64,000 nucleotides of DNA from Gelidibacter maritimus (GTDB taxonomy: Bacteria > Bacteroidota > Bacteroidia > Flavobacteriales > Flavobacteriaceae): NCBI RefSeq assembly GCF_014062315.1, contig NZ_JACGLT010000011.1:62001-126000 (forward strand), written 5' to 3'. A program made the position numbers and the translations under genes. The notes under the pieces were generated by a model. It ran no database searches and was not told the DNA's origin. It saw only the letters and a list, made by a program, of their open reading frames with translations. Positions 43,063 to 55,681 of the stretch are shown here, in pieces (within the stretch, counting starts at the first letter, position 1; every line of letters starts with the position of its first letter).

Positions 43063-43136
43063 GGCCTCGTGGCGCAACTGAATAGCGCACTTGATTACGG
43101 CTCAAGAGGTTACAGGTTTGAATCCTGTCGAGGTCA
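43063..43136 (+). tRNA. tRNA-Arg (anticodon ACG); ICE integration site
   Basis: A complete 74-nt cloverleaf. The acceptor stem GGCCTCG pairs with CGAGGTC, the anticodon stem CTTGA/TCAAG encloses loop TTACGGC with anticodon ACG (normally deaminated to ICG), and the T-arm is ACAGGTTTGAATCCTGT. No CCA is encoded. An integrase gene starts 233 bp downstream, and ICE genes fill the rest of the window, so the 3' end is the likely attachment site. Confidence 0.96.
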
Positions 43137-43368: not shown

Positions 43369-44733
43369 ATGAGAACAGTAAAAACACTTGGGATTCACTT
43401 CTGGGTCAACAAGCAAAAGGAAATTGATGGTGAAGTACTTCTGTATGTTAGAATCACTATCGATAAAAAACGTGTCAATATCAGTTTAAAGCGCAAAGTT
43501 CCATTGGGGTTATGGGATTTCAAACACCGAAAGATGATTGGCAACTCCGCTAAATCAAAAGAAATTAATAATTACTTAGAAGTAACGAAGGCTGAACTTT
43601 ATAATCGTTATCAAATTCTACGTAGTGAGAATAGTGATATAACGGCCGAAAATTTAAAAAATGAATTTTTGCAAGATGGGGTAGACTCAAAAACGCTTCT
43701 TGAGCTATTAAATTACCACAGTCAAAAAATTGAAAATACTTTGGCTATTGGTTCCATTAGAAATTTTAAAGTCACTGAAGGTTATATTTTACGATTTTTA
43801 AAACGGAAAAAGCTCAATGATATTTCTTTATCTCATTTGAATTATGAATTTTTATGTGATTTTGAGAACTATTTAAATGCCTACTATCCAAAAGGTCATC
43901 CAAAGGCGATGAGCCATAACACGGTAACAAAACACATTCAACGTTTTCGAAAAGTGGTAACGCTTGCCTATAATCTTGAATGGATCAAGGATGATCCATT
44001 TCGAAGATGGAAATCTTCATTTGATAGAGTAGATAGAGAATTTCTGTCCGATAATGAGCTTTCAAAACTCGCCACACATCATTTTGAACTTGACCGTTTG
44101 GACCGTGTCAGGGATCTTTTTGTTTTCAGTAGCTATACAGGAATCTCTTATGTGGACATTCTGCATTTGACAAAACAAAATGTTTGGATTGGTGATGATG
44201 AAGGTCATAAATGGATTACAACATACAGGCGAAAAACAAATACTAAAATCAAAATTCCATTGTTGTTCCGCGCAGAAGAGATTCTTCTTAAATATGAGGC
44301 GCATCCAGTGACCCAGTTTTCGGGTAAGCTTTTGCCAACAATAACCAATGAGAAAGCTAACCTTTATCTGAAAGAAATTGCAAAAGAAGTTGGAATTGAA
44401 AAAAATCTCACTTTTCATATGGCACGGCATACGTTTGCAACAACAGTGGCGTTGAGCAACGGAATGCCAATTGAAACGGTTTCTAAGATATTAGGACATT
44501 CTAAAATTACAACTACCCAAATTTATGCTCGTGTCATGGATCACAAAGTAAAATCAGATATGGACGCTGTGCAAAGAAGACTTGACATAAAAGCGAAAAA
44601 ACTGGAAGACGATCAGGAGCTGAAACTGCTGCGAAAAAAAATTGCAGATGCCGAAAAGAATAAATATGCTGAGATGTCTAAAGAACAACTTCTTAATAAG
44701 TTGAACGAAATAATGCAGGAAAAATCGGATTAG
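43369..44733 (+). CDS. int: Tyrosine recombinase (ICE integrase, IntDOT-like)
   Basis: A 454-residue site-specific recombinase: an N-terminal arm-binding domain (about 1-95), a SAM-like core-binding domain (about 105-215), and the catalytic domain (about 225-400). Catalytic residues: Ser260 in SYTGISYVDI where the first Arg normally sits, Lys near 289, His350 and Arg353 (HMARHTF), His377 (LGHSKITTT) and nucleophile Tyr386. The same Arg-to-Ser exchange is known for IntDOT of CTnDOT. The C-terminal 50 residues form a charged coiled coil. It should integrate and excise the ICE at tRNA-Arg. Confidence 0.92.
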   Translation: MRTVKTLGIHFWVNKQKEIDGEVLLYVRITIDKKRVNISLKRKVPLGLWDFKHRKMIGNSAKSKEINNYLEVTKAELYNRYQILRSENSDITAENLKNEFLQDGVDSKTLLELLNYHSQKIENTLAIGSIRNFKVTEGYILRFLKRKKLNDISLSHLNYEFLCDFENYLNAYYPKGHPKAMSHNTVTKHIQRFRKVVTLAYNLEWIKDDPFRRWKSSFDRVDREFLSDNELSKLATHHFELDRLDRVRDLFVFSSYTGISYVDILHLTKQNVWIGDDEGHKWITTYRRKTNTKIKIPLLFRAEEILLKYEAHPVTQFSGKLLPTITNEKANLYLKEIAKEVGIEKNLTFHMARHTFATTVALSNGMPIETVSKILGHSKITTTQIYARVMDHKVKSDMDAVQRRLDIKAKKLEDDQELKLLRKKIADAEKNKYAEMSKEQLLNKLNEIMQEKSD

Positions 44734-48246: not shown

Positions 48247-48682
48247 AACATCATTTTTTAAGGGTATTGGCATGCAATAAGTTATTTGTGCAATGATCTT
48301 TTTGTAATATTTATATAAATGATAAAAATAATTTCTACTTCTATTATCTTATTCACTATGTATTTTAATTTATAGAGTGCGGATTATTTCACTAAAGTTA
48401 TCTATGTGAACTCATAACATTTAAATAACCCCTGATTTTTTGATGGAGCCAAAATAGAGAATTAACTGATGTCACATAATTAAATTCGATGAAGTGCGAA
48501 TATTAATTTTTCCGATTTTAGTATTGCTAATAGTATTTCAAATAGCCCAATTAACATGACATTATGGGAGATTTTAAAAGTTAGAAGAAAGATTTTGTTG
48601 ACCGGATATAATGTGGGATTTAAACGGAGTATGAGCAATTTGGAATGATTAGTATCTTAATTAGTCGTTCAGCCCATTGCCG

Positions 48683-48857
48683 CTCCATTTCGCAAAAGCT
48701 CCATTACGGGCAAAGCGCTTCATTAAAAAGTCTTGGACCCAAATCCAAAGTCTATGGTTTCCATTCCACTTGCCCGCCATTCCCGAAAAAACGGGGAGGC
48801 GGGCAAACTCCATTGCAACCTCCAACTTTGAAGTCGCGTCCGCTTAGCCTCGGCTAA
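48683..48857. repeat. Structured direct repeat, copy 1
   Basis: Begins CTCCATTTCGC and aligns with copy 2 at 48899. Hairpins in order: AAGC/GCTT (about 48697-48720); TTGGA/TCCAA (48733-48737 with 48744-48748); a large stem TTGCCCGCC/GGCGGGCAA (48770-48778 with 48798-48806) enclosing CCCG/CGGG; ACTT/AAGT (48825-48834); TTAGCC/GGCTAA (48844-48857). Confidence 0.6.
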
Positions 48858-48898
48858 ACGTGGTAATTCCATTAAAGCAATTCGGGAAGCACATTCCC

Positions 48899-49075
48899 CT
48901 ACATTTCGCGAAAAGCTACATTCCAGGAAAAGAGCTTCCCTACAATACTCTTGGACACCATCCCCAATTTCTACTTTCCATTTCGCTAAACCCGCTCCGT
49001 CCCGATCGCTATCGGGACGGAGCGGAACGCTTCATTCCCAATTCGAAATTGAGGAGGAGTCCGCAAATTCGGAGT
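48899..49075. repeat. Structured direct repeat, copy 2
   Basis: Begins CTACATTTCGC. Hairpins in the same order as copy 1 but with different sequences: AAGCT/AGCTT (about 48913-48937); TTGG/CCAA (48951-48954 with 48964-48967); a perfect 15-bp stem (48992-49006 with 49011-49025, loop CGCT); CAATT/AATTG (49039-49043 with 49047-49051); TCCG/CGGA (49060-49073). Confidence 0.6.
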
Positions 49076-49087
49076 TCCATGTCATCA

Positions 49088-49373
49088 TTTGGTGCCACTT
49101 CCTATGTTTTTATATTTCACATAAGTCTTTAGAACTACCTCCGCACCCTCGCTACCCCAACCTTTTTTTGCCAGCAAAATACCAATATTTTGAACTTGAA
49201 CAGACTGCATAAACCGTTACGCTGCGCTTCACTTTTTATAAGTCCTTATCAATTCAAAATATTGAAACTGTATCAGCAACAAAAAAAGGTAACAGCGAGG
49301 GCGCTATGGGAAGTAAATCTAAAATGAAACTTATGAAATCTTACAAAAACATACAAAAGGAAGTGGCACCAAA
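49088..49373. repeat. Large imperfect inverted repeat upstream of ssb
   Basis: Left arm 49088-49194 and right arm 49253-49373 are reverse complements over most of their length, with a 58-nt loop. Exact blocks: 15 bp TTTGGTGCCACTTCC (49088-49102 with 49359-49373), 8 bp CCCTCGCT (49146 with 49301), 11 bp (49160-49170 with 49280-49290) and 12 bp CAATATTTTGAA (49183-49194 with 49253-49264). Several 5-9-bp blocks lie between. Confidence 0.8.
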
Positions 49374-49381
49374 AAAACAAA

Positions 49382-49400
49382 CCTGCCTGCCGCAGGCAGG
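49382..49400. repeat. CCTGCCTG palindrome
   Basis: CCTGCCTG (49382-49389) and CAGGCAGG (49393-49400) form a perfect 8-bp hairpin with a 3-nt loop. It is related to the palindromes at 31767 and 49494. Confidence 0.7.
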
Positions 49401-49459
49401 AAAGGAAAACGCTCAAGATATAATAAGTAAATCACTTCAAAAAAATATAACAATAAACG

Positions 49460-49511
49460 GTCTGAATGGTTCAGACAGCATTTTAGTTAACCCGCCTGCC
49501 GGCTGGCAGGC
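49460..49511. repeat. Two short perfect palindromes before ssb
   Basis: GTCTGAA/TTCAGAC (49460-49466 with 49470-49476) and GCCTGCC/GGCAGGC (49494-49500 with 49505-49511). The second is 17 bp before the ssb ATG and could hide or expose the ribosome-binding area. Confidence 0.6.
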
Positions 49512-49527
49512 CTTTAAATCTTTTATT

Positions 49528-49872
49528 ATGAGTACTCTAAAAAATCACGTACAGTTAATCGGAAACGTTGGACAGGAGCCAACCATTACGAACCTTGAAA
49601 GCGGTAAGAAAGTAGCCCGTTTTTCACTCGCCACTAATGAATATTACAAAAACGATAAGGGCGAGAAAACGCAAACTACAGATTGGCACACGGTGGTAGC
49701 CTGGGGCAAGACCGCCGAAATTACCGAAAAATATGTAGGTAAAGGCAAAGAAGTAGGTGTTACCGGAAAATTGAAATCACGAAGCTACGAGGACAACGAC
49801 GGTATCAAACGATATGTTACCGAAATTGAAGCGAATGAAATCCTTTTGCTCGGAACCAAAAATGGCAAGTAG
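49528..49872 (+). CDS. ssb: Ssb, ICE-encoded single-stranded DNA-binding protein
   Basis: A 114-residue OB-fold protein: MSTLKNHVQLIGNVGQEPTI start, then KVARFSLATNEYYKNDKGEK, DWHTVVAWGKTAEITEKYVG, KGKEVGVTGKLKSRSYEDND and the final YVTEIEANEILLLG. It lacks the acidic C-terminal tail that chromosomal SSBs use to bind partner proteins, as is common for element-borne SSBs. An in-frame extension up to the ATG at 49306 covers the inverted repeat and palindromes and is rejected. Such genes often help protect and convert transferred single-strand DNA in the recipient. A terminator follows. Confidence 0.92.
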   Translation: MSTLKNHVQLIGNVGQEPTITNLESGKKVARFSLATNEYYKNDKGEKTQTTDWHTVVAWGKTAEITEKYVGKGKEVGVTGKLKSRSYEDNDGIKRYVTEIEANEILLLGTKNGK

Positions 49873-49883
49873 CCATTAAAACT

Positions 49884-49922
49884 AAAGAGGGCGTACCTCT
49901 TAAAGTTGCGCCCTCTTTTTTC
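49884..49922 (+). terminator. Terminator of ssb
   Basis: AAAGAGGGCG (49884-49893) pairs with CGCCCTCTTT (49909-49918), followed by T residues. Confidence 0.88.
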
Positions 49923-49991
49923 ATTATTCACACATTAAATATATGCACAATGAAATCGAAGATTCACGATTTCGATTAAAAAATAGAAATT

Positions 49992-50375
49992 ATGAGTAAA
50001 ACACAAGTTAACGACATCAAAGAAGGATTGCAACATTTTCATGGAACGGAAATGTTCTATCAAATTCCATTGTTACAGACCCGTTTTACGGACGGATTGA
50101 AATATTTAGCCGAAGTTGCAGAATGTTTTTGGCTCATTACAGACACTTCAGTAATTGCTAAAAGCCTGATGGATCACAGCAGGTTCATAACCATAGATTT
50201 TAAAAGGTTGTCCAGGGAAACGCAGGAATCCAAAGGCTACGAAGCTGAAATAATTTATTCCGATGGCAATGATAATATTTTGGAAAAACATGGCTATCGG
50301 GTTACCGATTTCCCCTTGGATGAACTGCGATTGTATTTTGTAAATGATACGTTGATGTTACCAAGCGAATACTAA
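49992..50375 (+). CDS. DUF6876 family protein
   Basis: A 127-residue soluble protein. GLQHFHGTEMFYQIPLLQTR, FTDGLKYLAEVAECFWLITD and the closing FPLDELRLYFVNDTLMLPSE match the DUF6876 pattern, found mainly on Bacteroidota mobile elements next to ssb or mobilization genes. The family has no known function. It lies between ssb and the candidate oriT, in the putative leading region. Confidence 0.75.
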   Translation: MSKTQVNDIKEGLQHFHGTEMFYQIPLLQTRFTDGLKYLAEVAECFWLITDTSVIAKSLMDHSRFITIDFKRLSRETQESKGYEAEIIYSDGNDNILEKHGYRVTDFPLDELRLYFVNDTLMLPSEY

Positions 50376-50377
50376 AA

Positions 50378-50575
50378 ATGTACGCTATGGTTTAGCTCAA
50401 TTTTACAGACCTGAGCGAGATGGCTCAAAAGCGACTTTTGGAAGATTCCTAAAAGGATGTGGAACGAAAATTTGGCGAAGAAATTCGAAAATACTTAGAG
50501 AAAAATTACACCGACTTTAAAACGATGATAGCCGGAAGCATTGCGAAATTTATAGTCCTACACATTCGTTTCTAA
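50378..50575 (+). pseudogene. Possible decayed small gene with two in-frame stops
   Basis: Starting at the ATG at 50378 the frame reads past a TAG (50393) and a TAA (50450) as LNFTDLSEMAQKRLLEDS and then KDVERKFGEEIRKYLEKNYT DFKTMIAGSIAKFIVLHIRF before a final stop. The composition looks protein-like, but no family is recognised. It could also be chance. Confidence 0.3.
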
Positions 50576-50600
50576 CATTTGATATTCTAAACTTATTGAG

Positions 50601-50630
50601 AAACACCTCTAAATTTTGGAGGTGTTTTTT
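50601..50630 (+). terminator. Terminator upstream of the candidate oriT
   Basis: AAACACCTC (50601-50609) pairs with GAGGTGTTT (50619-50627), followed by T residues. Confidence 0.85.
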
Positions 50631-50782
50631 AGTTTCGTAATTACAATTTAACAAAAAAAGTGTATCTTTATTTCGCTGAGATTCGGCATTCAATTTTAAG
50701 TAGGGTTATCCATTTTTCACTTTCGCCGATAACTTCACACATCGAAAATAACATATCGGAAAATCATTTTCCCTAGAACTTG

Positions 50783-50901
50783 CAATCGGCTCCGACAGCT
50801 GTCGTAACTGCCGGATTGTATGGATTTTTGTCCCGCTGCGCGGGACGAAAAGGAATAGCAAGAGGGTAACACGCTGCGCGATGTTACAGATTCCTTTTCG
50901 T
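50783..50901. other. Candidate oriT: cluster of nested palindromes
   Basis: CAATC/GATTG (50783-50787 with 50814-50818) encloses the perfect 12-bp palindrome CGACAGCTGTCG (50793-50804). Then GTCCCGC/GCGGGAC (50830-50836 with 50840-50846) and ACGAAAAGGAAT/ATTCCTTTTCGT (50845-50856 with 50890-50901) enclosing GTAACA/TGTTAC (50866-50871 with 50882-50887). It lies about 120 bp before the mobilization genes, the usual place of oriT. A T-run after the last arm means terminator activity is also possible. No nick site can be named. Confidence 0.5.
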
Positions 50902-51022
50902 TTTTAAATTGCTGATTATTAAGCTCTTACATTTGATGTAATTGCTTTGGAATCAACAGTTTGCGACAAACGGCTTGGATACACCCATTTTTAGGGAAGA
51001 TTTTGCGACAATACGGCGAAAT

Positions 51023-51424
51023 ATGGACACATTTATTGGAATCAGATTTAAAAAGGAAACTGCCAAACGGTTTCAGGAATTTTCAAGGACCCACTTCAGA
51101 TCACATACTGAGGCCATGGCCGCCATGCTCGATTTTTTCTTCTATAATGAGATTTCGCCGAAGGAAAAATTGGGTCCGACCGGAAGGACCATCGAAGCTT
51201 CCATTAAAAAGCGGATCAATGCTGTTATTGCGATCATGAGAGATGTTGAAAAAACACAGACCAAACCGACTGCAGCAATGATCGCGTCCCTCTTTCAGGC
51301 AGAAGAAGCTCCCAAAAAACCTCTGATTTTGGAAAAGGCAATGCGGGAAGAAAAAAAGGAGATCCGCCGTAAGGCAGGAGAAAAGGGTTTTCAGAAAAAG
51401 CTGAACACAAATAATGAACTCTAA
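51023..51424 (+). CDS. BfmA/BtgA family mobilization accessory protein
   Basis: A 133-residue protein with an N-terminal ribbon-helix-helix-like segment (MDTFIGIRFKKETAKRFQEF, then SHTEAMAAMLDFFF) and a helical, charged C-terminus. This is the BfmA/BtgA pattern: small DNA-binding proteins that help the relaxase recognise oriT. The ATG at 51023 is chosen, since the upstream TTG at 50942 adds 27 residues unlike the family. It lies just right of the candidate oriT and 10 bp upstream of the relaxase gene. Confidence 0.82.
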   Translation: MDTFIGIRFKKETAKRFQEFSRTHFRSHTEAMAAMLDFFFYNEISPKEKLGPTGRTIEASIKKRINAVIAIMRDVEKTQTKPTAAMIASLFQAEEAPKKPLILEKAMREEKKEIRRKAGEKGFQKKLNTNNEL

Positions 51425-51434
51425 TATTTAAGCG

Positions 51435-52487
51435 ATGTACATCACTATCACACCTCAGAAACTGGGCGGCAATTACTCCCAAAGTTCTGCCGATTTTGTC
51501 GAATATCTGGAGAAGGAAAATCAAGGTCTGGAACTAGGAGAATTGACTTCCCAAGCAGCAGGGGGCGAACATTTTTTCAATCAATATGGCGATCGAATCT
51601 CTGCGGAGGAAGTAATCAGGGAAATAGATGGAAATACGGCAAAATTAAAAAGGAACGAACCGAAATTTTATTCCATAACTGTAAGTCCCTCTAAATATGA
51701 ACTGAACCGGTTGCAAGACAGTAGCGTAGACCTAAAAATATATACTCGTGAACTGATGAAGGATTATGTGGCTTCTTTCAACCGGGAAATTCATTGGCGT
51801 CCCCTAACCATCGATGACATTAAATACTTTGCAAGAATAGAACATCAAAGGACCTTTAAAGGAACAGACATACAGATAAGGGAAAATCAACCTTATGCCT
51901 CAAAGATCCTTCTGTTAAAAACAGAGATCCAGAATATCCGGGAAGGTAGGGCAGTAGGCAATGTCCAAAAAATAAGAGCGGAAATCGAAAATTTGGAAAA
52001 GGCCGCACCGCATCAGCAGGATGGCAAGCGCATTGTACAAGGAATGCCAAAGGCGGGAAACCAAAGCCATATCCATATCATCGTAAGCCGAAAGGATGCT
52101 TCAAATACCTTCAGTCTCTCGCCAGGAAGTAAATATAAAGCTTCGGAGATTGAGATGCACGGGAAAATTGTCAAACGTGGGTTTGACCGTGCTACATTCT
52201 TTAAAAATGCCGAAAAAACGTTTGATAAAACGTTCGATTATAACAGAAACTTTGCTGAGAGCTATAAGGCGCGAAATGATTTTATCAAGAATCCAAAGAT
52301 ATATTTTGCAGCACTTATGAAATTGCCTACCAATGAAAAAGCACTGGCGTTTAAAATAATGGGTAAAGCTGGCATTCCTATAATGCCGACGATTCCTGCA
52401 ACACAGGCACAATTGGCAATGAAAATATTTAACAGGTTACGCCGCGGTGCGGAAGTGGCCATCAAATCTAGTTCTATCGGGATTTAA
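51435..52487 (+). CDS. mobB: MobB-like relaxase (DUF5712)
   Basis: A 350-residue mobilization protein of the Bacteroidota MobB/DUF5712 type that would nick oriT and lead the DNA strand into the recipient. The N-terminus MYITITPQKLGGNYSQSS has the likely Tyr; KFYSITVSPSKYEL and KYFARIEHQRTFKG follow. The HxH metal motif sits in NQSHIHIIVSRKD at about residue 215, and YNRNFAESYKARNDF near 285 is a family segment. The C-terminal 40 residues are hydrophobic/basic. It is followed 6 bp later by the coupling protein gene. Confidence 0.85.
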   Translation: MYITITPQKLGGNYSQSSADFVEYLEKENQGLELGELTSQAAGGEHFFNQYGDRISAEEVIREIDGNTAKLKRNEPKFYSITVSPSKYELNRLQDSSVDLKIYTRELMKDYVASFNREIHWRPLTIDDIKYFARIEHQRTFKGTDIQIRENQPYASKILLLKTEIQNIREGRAVGNVQKIRAEIENLEKAAPHQQDGKRIVQGMPKAGNQSHIHIIVSRKDASNTFSLSPGSKYKASEIEMHGKIVKRGFDRATFFKNAEKTFDKTFDYNRNFAESYKARNDFIKNPKIYFAALMKLPTNEKALAFKIMGKAGIPIMPTIPATQAQLAMKIFNRLRRGAEVAIKSSSIGI

Positions 52488-54188: not shown

Positions 54189-55046
54189 TCAAGTGGTCTC
54201 AAATTTAATTTTTTGAATTAAATCCTTGAAATATTTCGGGCTCCAAATATTTAAAACATCGTCATTTGGGATAAACTTAACGACGTCCTCTTTGATCCTG
54301 CTGAATGAAACAGAATCGATTTTGGTGTCCAATAGCTCGATGATCTGTTCTTTGGAAATGGTAGTGTCAGGCCAGTCATTGGTGTCTTTCGCTCTCGTTA
54401 AGAAATGATTTACGTCCAAAGGAATTCCCTTTTTGATATACCATTCTAAATCATACCAATCCCTTCCTTTAACTCTATTTAGCCACTTTCTAAATAGAAG
54501 GGCATGCAGTTTTCCTGCAAATAAACTTGGTTTCGTAAAGCATTTTACGTAAAAGGAAAATGGACGGAGCAATAACTTTTCTTCGGTTTGGAAATCTAGT
54601 GGAGGCTGTCGATCAACTTCTATTTTTATCTTTAAGGTCTTGTTGGAGCGCACCCCAGTTTCCTTGATGATGTCTTCTAATACAATTTCCTGCCATATGG
54701 TTTCGGCTTTTAGAAACGCAGAATCAATAGCCGTTTGTTTTGTTTTTTTCTTTTCCTTGATACTAATGGTCAGGCCCAATGACTTAAATTCATCTATAAT
54801 GGCATTGAAATATGGCTCAATAGAAAAATTAGGATTGGGCTTAAGTAATGAGAAATCCAGATCTTCCGAATATCTATCCAATCTATAGAAAATCCGGAGA
54901 GCGGTTCCTTCATAAAAAGCTGCCTTCTCAAAAAAATCAGTTCTTGATAAGCCTGCTAAAGTAATTTCTTGCATTATTTCTCGTAATGCAGATAAAATCT
55001 CTTCCTCATTCTGAGGGTTATAGTCCTCTATCCATTCTCTTATCAT
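54189..55046 (-). CDS. abiEii: AbiEii toxin, nucleotidyltransferase
   Basis: A 285-residue protein of the nucleotidyltransferase AbiEii/AbiGii toxin family. The DNA polymerase beta-like core is seen in EGTALRIFYRLDRYSEDLDF (GT-A motif and D-x-D pair, about residues 48-67), and GRDWYDLEWYI is a conserved C-terminal motif. AbiE toxins block growth, by family knowledge through adding nucleotides to tRNA, and protect against phages or stabilise elements. It overlaps its antitoxin gene by 4 bp and is transcribed opposite to the mobilization genes. Confidence 0.92.
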   Translation of the reverse strand: MIREWIEDYNPQNEEEILSALREIMQEITLAGLSRTDFFEKAAFYEGTALRIFYRLDRYSEDLDFSLLKPNPNFSIEPYFNAIIDEFKSLGLTISIKEKKKTKQTAIDSAFLKAETIWQEIVLEDIIKETGVRSNKTLKIKIEVDRQPPLDFQTEEKLLLRPFSFYVKCFTKPSLFAGKLHALLFRKWLNRVKGRDWYDLEWYIKKGIPLDVNHFLTRAKDTNDWPDTTISKEQIIELLDTKIDSVSFSRIKEDVVKFIPNDDVLNIWSPKYFKDLIQKIKFETT

Positions 55047-55681
55047 AATTCCATCAGTGTTTTAATAAGCATTTTTAGACTACTTTTTTTAGGGGCGCTA
55101 TCAATCCATAAGTCCATGATTTTTGTATTTAATGTGCTTAATATATCACTGTCCATGCGAAGATCTTCCGATAAAAATTCCCGTGTTTGTTTGATGCTTC
55201 TAAGATGAATTTTGGGTGTTAGAACAATTTTGTCACATAATGCCTTTTCTGGGGAGGCAATTAACACGGTTTGTTTAGGCGAATATTCTATGTTTTTAAT
55301 CCCATAAGAATAATAGGGAGCCTTTGATTGTTGGTAACTAAATCGTCCAACAGCAGTTTTATATGTCTTTGTAGTTTGTAGAGTTACTGAACTTATTTCA
55401 TAGGCCATTTCCGGTATCATGTTCCAATAGGACAATGCGGATTCTAAGGAGACGTAACTCGGTCCCCTAAGGTGATTGGCAATCAGAAACGGCTCTGGTG
55501 TTGGTAAGTCCAATTTAGGTCCTGTTATATATAGTCCTCTTCTGATAGAAATAAGCTTTTTACTTTTAAGCAACTCACTGATTTTATCATTTGGACGCTT
55601 ATAATCTTTTAATAAATCCAAAATCAGGTGCCTGGATATAGGTGTTTCTGCATATTCCTTTATCCTCTTTCTAAACTCCAT
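55043..55681 (-). CDS. abiEi: AbiEi antitoxin, transcriptional regulator
   Basis: A 212-residue AbiEi-type antitoxin. An N-terminal winged-helix region (about 1-60: ISELLKSKKLISIRRGLYIT) is followed by the AbiEi core LIANHLRGPSYVSLESALSY and a C-terminal helical domain (ASPEKALCDKIVL). In this type IV toxin-antitoxin family the antitoxin does not bind the toxin but represses the operon and counters its effect. Its stop overlaps the abiEii start. No clear promoter motif was identified upstream. Confidence 0.9.
   Translation of the reverse strand: MEFRKRIKEYAETPISRHLILDLLKDYKRPNDKISELLKSKKLISIRRGLYITGPKLDLPTPEPFLIANHLRGPSYVSLESALSYWNMIPEMAYEISSVTLQTTKTYKTAVGRFSYQQSKAPYYSYGIKNIEYSPKQTVLIASPEKALCDKIVLTPKIHLRSIKQTREFLSEDLRMDSDILSTLNTKIMDLWIDSAPKKSSLKMLIKTLMEL

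Follow-up and report, generated by a model that had tools for sequence, protein, structure and literature searches.

The DNA analysed here is a stretch of 64,000 nucleotides from Gelidibacter maritimus, called the window below, and the region described in the following is read as an ICE carried by marine bacteria. A tRNA found by Rfam search (43063-43136) is followed by an integrase gene (43369-44733), and small lipoprotein-like ORFs on the minus strand lie between the integrase and an array of tandem non-coding units. To the right of the array, on the plus strand, are ssb, encoding a single-strand binding protein (49531..49872; PF00436, E 4.9e-35; start chosen by similarity to relatives), and a DUF6876 gene assigned to the leading region (49992..50375; PF21781, E 3.1e-32), after which the sequence holds a terminator-like hairpin with a T-run (50604..50624, plus strand). 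The DUF6876 gene follows ssb and has a relative in 40 of the 80 related loci described below; its location hints at a function in establishment or anti-defence. Further right, also on the plus strand, lie a gene for a MobA-like accessory protein (50942..51424) and a DUF5712 gene (51435..52487; PF18976, E 1.6e-111). The MobA-like name was inferred from position; the protein had no Pfam match and belongs to a cluster (CL1) with 16 members in 14 loci. The DUF5712 protein is taken as the relaxase, a putative role based on its position and its conserved HIH residues. Neither DUF5712 nor DUF6876 was found mentioned in the literature searched. The coupling protein, an AbiEii gene and the T4SS genes are located to the right of the DUF5712 gene. 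The AbiEii-type gene and its partner ORF (54189-55681) stand between the mob and T4SS genes; in locus L096, another AbiEii gene comes after a remote unit.

A core of conserved inverted repeats at 50848..50898, recognised by its motif, is the best candidate for oriT. Exactly one such core is present in 79 of 81 loci (80 relatives and the window). The core separates the ssb genes from the mob genes; in those relatives that were inspected, its distance upstream of the DUF5712 gene is about 560 bp. As a strand indicator the core was too conserved to give any signal.

The array in the window consists of two tandem units of ~205 bp upstream of ssb, both delimited by profile match and both folded on the minus strand. 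Unit 1 (48664..48868), for which the fold and pair counts of its type are also available, belongs to type A. Its domain D2 (48671..48719), seen in the sequence and the consensus folds, has AGC/GCT and TTGCC/GGCAA stems, and its domain D1 (48735..48841), defined by consensus fold and pair counts, has a GGAC/GTCC basal helix, a CAAAG/CTTTG helix and an apical hairpin. Unit 2 (48881..49089), of type B, is the copy adjoining ssb. Its D2 (48884..48940) contains GGGAAGC/GCTTCCC and TTCCC/GGGAA stems and a doubled GNA-AT-GNA loop, while its D1 (48953..49062) contains GGAC/GTCC and CAATTT/AAATTG helices, another doubled GNA-AT-GNA loop and an apical hairpin. The first-pass annotation had described two imperfect direct copies here, and these are present, matching each other at BLAST E 4e-8 with 75.5% identity in 98 aligned columns; the intervals it gave, 48683-48857 and 48899-49075, did not hold, their left ends being shifted by 18-19 bases relative to the profile matches. 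The hairpins with altered stems that it placed at matching positions are real, and the two stems it cited, TTGCCCGCC in copy 1 and a 15-bp stem in copy 2, proved to be the apical part of one shared domain. A second, related copy pair is found on another contig of the same genome (80% identity over 425 aligned columns), and a third contig holds an incomplete copy (83% over 158 columns). The related pair in the same genome, together with covariation in sequences outside the model, means that the pair in the window is not a product of chance.

The 15-bp apical stem of unit 2 is an inverted repeat (48992..49025) that a palindromic insert has made longer; three of 18 aligned units, this one included, have bases in the insert columns. 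Palindromic inserts in the D1 apical loop were also seen in units of L058 and L029, as if the D1 fold tolerated or attracted them, and a similar palindrome lies at 49381-49400. ORFs do cross the units (for example 70, 56 and 90 aa on the plus strand, 54 aa on the minus strand), but these were not taken as genes because aligned units differ from one another by gaps whose lengths are not multiples of three.

To collect relatives, GTDB genomes were scanned with an alignment of 10 relaxases and the best 80 of 571 loci were taken. Their source genera are nearly all ones that we take to be Flavobacteriaceae; Membranihabitans presumably belongs to the Saprospirales, as would one further locus so labelled. 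An iterated nucleotide profile found units in 69 of these best 80 loci. Ten loci could not be assessed for position, the ssb match not being intact or the contig being cut within 1 kb of ssb; L127, which is of full length but lacks both ssb and unit, is counted among them. A unit lies within 1 kb upstream of ssb in 69 of the 70 assessable loci, the exception being L082, and the proposed place upstream of an ICE ssb is thereby borne out. All 136 unit matches share the orientation of ssb, including 15 units more than 2 kb away from it. The number of contiguous units adjoining ssb is 1, 2, 3, 4 and 6 in 41, 19, 7, 1 and 1 loci, respectively; such locus counts are not all independent because some of the 80 loci are near-identical and three (L064, L071 and L135) come from genomes already used. 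The distance from the last unit to the ssb start is 376-508 bp in 69 of 75 rows, with a bimodal distribution. Six contiguous units stand in a Subsaximicrobium locus (L063:6363-7738), with a further unit at 2257-2445; as two of the six agree in both model coordinates and E-value, the array may have been amplified recently.

The units fall into two types, A for upstream copies and B for mostly the copy adjoining ssb. They were split in this way because the consensus fold collapsed when the types were mixed in a plain MAFFT alignment (minus-strand RNA energies -4.6 kcal; 0 with DNA energies and for the plus strand). From 18 type B units, part 48881-49067 of unit 2 among them, we built a covariance model, R1, of 175 positions and 44 pairs, and ran it on 77 of the 80 loci, leaving out the three from re-used genomes. 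R1 gave 124 matches in 66 of the 77 loci, every one on the strand opposite ssb. No matched row was identical to a seed, and for the 79 rows with a seed match of at least 150 columns the median identity was 83%, with two rows reaching 95%. Across 105 distinct R1 rows, 94.4% of 4358 cells were paired, compared to 86.2% in shuffles. Two-sided changes were observed in 35 of the 44 pairs (17.3 in shuffles) and in 323 cells (78.7 in shuffles), and pairing fell to 33-50% when the partners were slid by 1-3 columns. With a tree-based null of our own, distinct from R-scape, the six top-scoring column pairs were all structural; four pairs were significant over all column pairs, and within the tested set 7 of 44 were. 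The R1 alignment was fitted to the structure and hence leans towards it. When the all-pairs test was applied to plain MAFFT alignments (89 units of type B, 66 of type A), it gave no structural pair at E<0.1 (best E 0.12), so the strict all-pairs evidence rests on the fitted alignment. The sole pair at E<0.1 in the plain alignments, columns 4 and 8 of type B, was rejected as a flank artefact. The hairpins are conserved in related elements, as units or model matches occur in most related loci. Taken with the covariation above background in loci outside the model, this upholds the first-pass suggestion that structure, as RNA or as folded single-strand DNA, is selected here and not coding.

In the fold of the minus strand, each unit forms two hairpin domains. 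D1 runs from a GGAC/GTCC base through a long helix to an apical hairpin, and D2 has an AGC/GCT stem plus either TTCCC/GGGAA or TTGCC/GGCAA. Each domain also contains two facing GNA-AT-GNA strands as an internal loop, and the whole motif is present at its four places in 90 of 103, 90 of 102, 84 of 104 and 95 of 104 rows. These loops resemble the human centromeric repeat (TGGAA)n, of which GGAATGGA is a permutation; the likeness is one of local motif only and implies no relation to the units. Sheared G.A pairing is the pairing associated with TGGAA-type motifs, and Zhu et al. in 1996 reportedly found that TGGAA repeats can form fold-back hairpins after a G-to-C change. The aligned apical loop is three bases long in 58 of 105 rows, 34 of them GNA (GCA 20, GTA 8, GAA 5, GGA 1) and 10 ATA. 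Among 162 distinct units, the strict DNA mini-hairpin GCGNAGC occurs in 27 on the minus strand and in two on the plus strand, with 7.3 expected and a maximum of 12 in 20 shuffles. Looser loop patterns were not enriched on the minus strand of the same 162 units: C-GNA-G was found in 65 units (86.0 in shuffles), GC-GNNA-GC in none (7.1), GNRA on C-G in 35 (64.5) and TTCG on C-G in two (10.3). In DNA, GNA and GNNA loops closed by G-C stems are described as giving mini-hairpins of extraordinary stability (PMC4686876).

The minus strand is the strand under structural selection. A one-sided change in a pair reads as G.T or as A.C according to the strand. For the 15 pairs showing at least two Watson-Crick types, each in five or more rows, 1460 cells contained 309 G.T and only 13 A.C combinations when read on the minus strand. 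Over all 44 pairs the non-Watson-Crick cells were G.T 535, G.A 86, G.G 39, A.C 38, T.T 29, A.A 25, C.T 23 and C.C 4; the pairs had been picked on the minus strand, which favours G.T in this full count, and the 15-pair subset is less open to such bias. The excess of G.T over A.C thus identifies the minus strand as the selected molecule. Folding energies gave the same picture, most clearly with RNA parameters. With RNA energies, the consensus folds reached -74.2 kcal on the minus strand and -54.7 kcal on the plus strand for type A, and -75.8 and -50.1 kcal, respectively, for type B. Of single units, after dropping the 7 of 162 outside both clusters, the minus strand was the more stable in 89/89 of type B and 66/66 of type A with RNA energies, and in 81/89 and 63/66 with DNA energies. 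In a fold scan of 43-64 kb of the window, the lowest z-scores belonged to the array, a second folded region, the ssb end, the oriT core and the tRNA. The mean strand difference of the region was -13.1 with RNA energies, compared to 2.9 (sd 7.3) elsewhere in the ICE, where two windows reach -18 and -21. With DNA energies it was small, -2.2 kcal compared to 0.2 (sd 2.2).

The second folded region fills the gap between the array and ssb. In the window it is a long imperfect hairpin on the minus strand (49088..49373), supported by a consensus fold of 29 sequences, with an inverted repeat as its outer arms (49088-49103 and 49358-49373). The gap holds one of two unlike folded regions, each stronger on the minus strand: among 64 distinct gap regions, 29 are of the window type (U1), 32 are of the other (U2) and three were not classed. 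The U1 fold has -82.0 on the minus and -42.6 on the plus strand (n=29), and U2 has -118.5 and -72.3 (n=32). G.T outnumbers A.C here as well, 392 to 26 in U1 and 471 to 10 in U2, counts that are biased because the pairs were predicted on the minus strand. These hairpins may be the real start site of the activity proposed below, with the units as accessories.

We also surveyed how far the units extend beyond the 80 loci. Units were found in 21 of 98 genomes searched as relatives, the source genome included (E<=0.001), and R1 matched six of 395 genomes of the class. When PF18976 was run over 395 genomes drawn alike and identically labelled, DUF5712 matches were obtained in 27. The six genomes with a DUF5712 match above 369 bits were exactly the six with a unit, while the 21 with matches below 325 bits had no R1 match. 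In 17 loci fetched around the weaker DUF5712 matches (at most 10.7 kb each, three of them under 5 kb), tblastn found no ssb, and there was no convincing unit, the best nhmmer matches having E 0.0038 and 0.069. The joint presence and absence across the sampled genomes thus indicates that unit, ssb and relaxase subfamily go together, as far as sampled. No blastn match was obtained in the plasmid and phage collections.

Of 11 loci fetched from R1-matching genomes, seven have ssb near the unit and four do not. The latter (L163, L164, L165 and L167) contain units with neither ssb nor relaxase in the fetched 15-16 kb, and an integrase match is present in L163 and L167; their units could be remnants or part of a smaller mobile element. 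Altogether 19 of 93 arrays stand away from ssb. The genes downstream of them read in the unit direction in 16 of 19 cases, which does not count as evidence because the upstream neighbours show the same 16 of 19. Pfam analysis of ten genes beside such arrays revealed mixed cargo. In L048, L049 and L050, which lie on one contig, arrays are spread over ~50 kb with cargo-like genes between them, and tblastn found in these stretches no relative of ssb, DUF6876, MobA, the relaxase or the coupling protein.

We propose that the array is a single-strand initiation element of the T-strand, a promoter and/or a priming site, in the leading region of Flavobacteriaceae ICEs, and put the probability of this reading at roughly 55%. 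On plasmids, mob genes normally enter the recipient last. Since the candidate oriT lies between ssb and the mob genes, the ssb side would therefore be leading and the minus strand would be the one transferred. After a nick at oriT, the minus strand would thus pass into the recipient with the ssb side first, and there each unit would fold into its two hairpin domains. The folded units and the long hairpin could then recruit host RNA polymerase or primase to the single strand, which would be the active form. RNA made on the minus-strand template would run rightwards through ssb and DUF6876 towards oriT, providing early SSB and/or a primer for the second strand; promoter and priming site could be one activity, and more tandem units would give higher efficiency.

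The predicted place in the leading region and the precedents of Frpo2, of SSBs encoded on the T-strand and of the ICEBs1 sso are among the reasons why the element is taken as a single-strand initiation site. In the F plasmid, Frpo2 lies upstream of ssb and is predicted to fold; when it was deleted, an ssb reporter no longer showed its early rise in recipients, and conjugation did not drop measurably (PMC9849209). SSB families are described as enriched in plasmid leading regions, where they are encoded on the T-strand (PMC11541004). The Frpo/ssi elements of F and related plasmids (PMC9849209, PMC11541004) share with the units a stem-loop structure, a leading-region place just upstream of ssb and, if the minus strand is the one transferred, T-strand-encoded leading genes. 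The units likewise lie upstream of ssb in 69 of 70 loci, 'leading' here depending on the putative direction of transfer. They differ in being two-domain modules of ~205 nt in one to six copies, accompanied by a long hairpin, in Flavobacteriaceae ICEs. Moreover, in Frpo a stem reconstitutes the -35 and -10 boxes, whereas our scans revealed no conserved promoter boxes. For ICEBs1, sso1 has been described as an orientation-specific ICE element acting on single-strand DNA, with three predicted stem-loops and activity in one orientation (PMC4595007). The units resemble it in their 136 of 136 matches in one orientation and their strand-specific covariation. They are, however, larger and tandem and belong to another phylum; the likeness is one of description, and a priming role of the units is predicted.

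The main competitor, which we regard as unlikely although well ahead of the other alternatives, is a structured non-coding RNA transcribed leftwards from the region upstream of ssb, comprising the long hairpin and one to six ~205-nt modules and serving ICE regulation or assembly. Strand-specific covariation with many G.U-type pairs is a classical mark of RNA and fits this explanation equally well, the G.T share (535 of 4358 cells) being just as typical of RNA, and the folding is far more one-sided with RNA than with DNA energies. There is also a precedent in STAXI (Weinberg et al. 2010), a motif whose structured repeats stand in tandem near genes for DNA handling, ssb among them, and for which RNA and single-strand DNA were both discussed (PMC2864571). 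Its authors considered action as RNA more likely because of its UUCG loops (PMC2864571). For the most part STAXI is a pseudoknot, repeated two or three times, in which UUCG loops are frequent (PMC2864571), whereas the units have two nested hairpin domains with GNA-type loops, and the same kind of loop argument makes the units lean, weakly, to DNA. The enriched GCGNAGC is likewise a DNA-stabilising loop.

The searches for transcription signals bear on the same alternative. Upstream of ssb, the promoter pair of Bacteroidota (TTTG / TAnnTTTG), required to match at 9 of 10 positions, was not conserved: it occurred in 3 of 64 loci on the plus and in 9 of 64 on the minus strand. Weak leftward promoter-like sites matching at 8 of 10 positions recur in up to 27 of 64 loci around -60/-50 from ssb, and in up to 23 around -170/-160, which would suit a leftward RNA. 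Yet the pair is not commoner than in shuffles at this threshold (2.33 compared to 3.34 per 930 nt), and the recurring sites are copies of a few related sequences. Sigma-70-type sites in window positions 48300-49600 were at chance level (three, with 3.6 expected). All these scans covered boxes that follow one another in the linear sequence. Terminator-like sites on the minus strand lie between ssb and the array in the window (49381-49400, 49460-49476 and 49292-49307) and none was found left of the leftmost unit, an arrangement that speaks against a leftward transcript; the strongest, 49381-49400, is a palindrome of the kind inserted elsewhere. Furthermore, the 15 units more than 2 kb from ssb hold the same orientation, which separate transcription units need not do.

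Rfam does not help the RNA explanation either. At the gathering score, Rfam 15 returned only tRNAs, two in the window and one among four relatives, in agreement with the first-pass statement that no known family is recognisable. Up to E 5, positions 48500-50950 gave four sub-threshold matches at chance level and none of a related kind; two of them were plant-type microRNA precursors on the long hairpin. The STAXI model was absent both from the window at the gathering score and from 48500-50950 up to E 5. Single-strand DNA is therefore favoured over RNA as the acting molecule, with some counterpoints: the strand difference with DNA energies is small, GCGNAGC occurs in just 27 of 162 units, conserved promoter boxes were not found, and 19 of 93 arrays stand away from ssb.

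The remaining explanations fare much worse. Folded single-strand recombination sites of the integron attC kind, with cargo inserted between the units, are an improbable reading: a folded bottom strand, a constant orientation and the cargo genes between units in several loci (L048-L050 among them) would suit such sites, but 41 of 70 loci have a single unit adjoining ssb, and the near-constant distance between unit and ssb suits a role towards ssb. Equally doubtful is a double-stranded site, that is, protein-binding repeats or cruciforms regulating ssb or relaxosome assembly. The conserved sequence blocks and the closeness to ssb and oriT would agree with it, but selection distinguishes the two strands, as the 15-pair G.T and A.C counts show, and a double-stranded site would not. 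Ordinary dispersed palindromes of the REP kind lying together by chance, suggested by the inserts in some apical loops, are refuted, since the insert occupies only three of 18 seed units and the two-domain core is conserved, covarying and fixed in location.

The observation from which this work started was correct and understated what is present, namely the specificity for the minus strand, a contiguous copy number of one to six and two domains with conserved internal loops. Start sites on single-strand DNA in leading regions are already known; the fold, the repetition of modules and the host range are new as far as searched, and by their titles none of the publications among the matches listed describes the element. 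Beyond the initiation reading itself, we put forward, with slightly less than even confidence, that the units represent a new class of natural folded single-strand DNA. Its modules, variable in dose and built with GNA triloops and paired GNA-AT-GNA loops, would work on no strand but the transferred one; by initiating transcription and/or second-strand synthesis on the incoming DNA, they would set the speed at which the ICE supplies its own SSB.

If this last reading is true, these ICEs would hold a single-strand DNA element with a fold that covariation supports in many genera, and Bacteroidota ICEs would have an initiation system in their leading region. A definite structure backed by covariation stands where it would be expected across many genera, which makes the question testable. 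Should the acting molecule be RNA instead, the units would constitute a new family of large structured RNAs linked to conjugation. In either case, the model can be used to find the leading regions of these ICEs.
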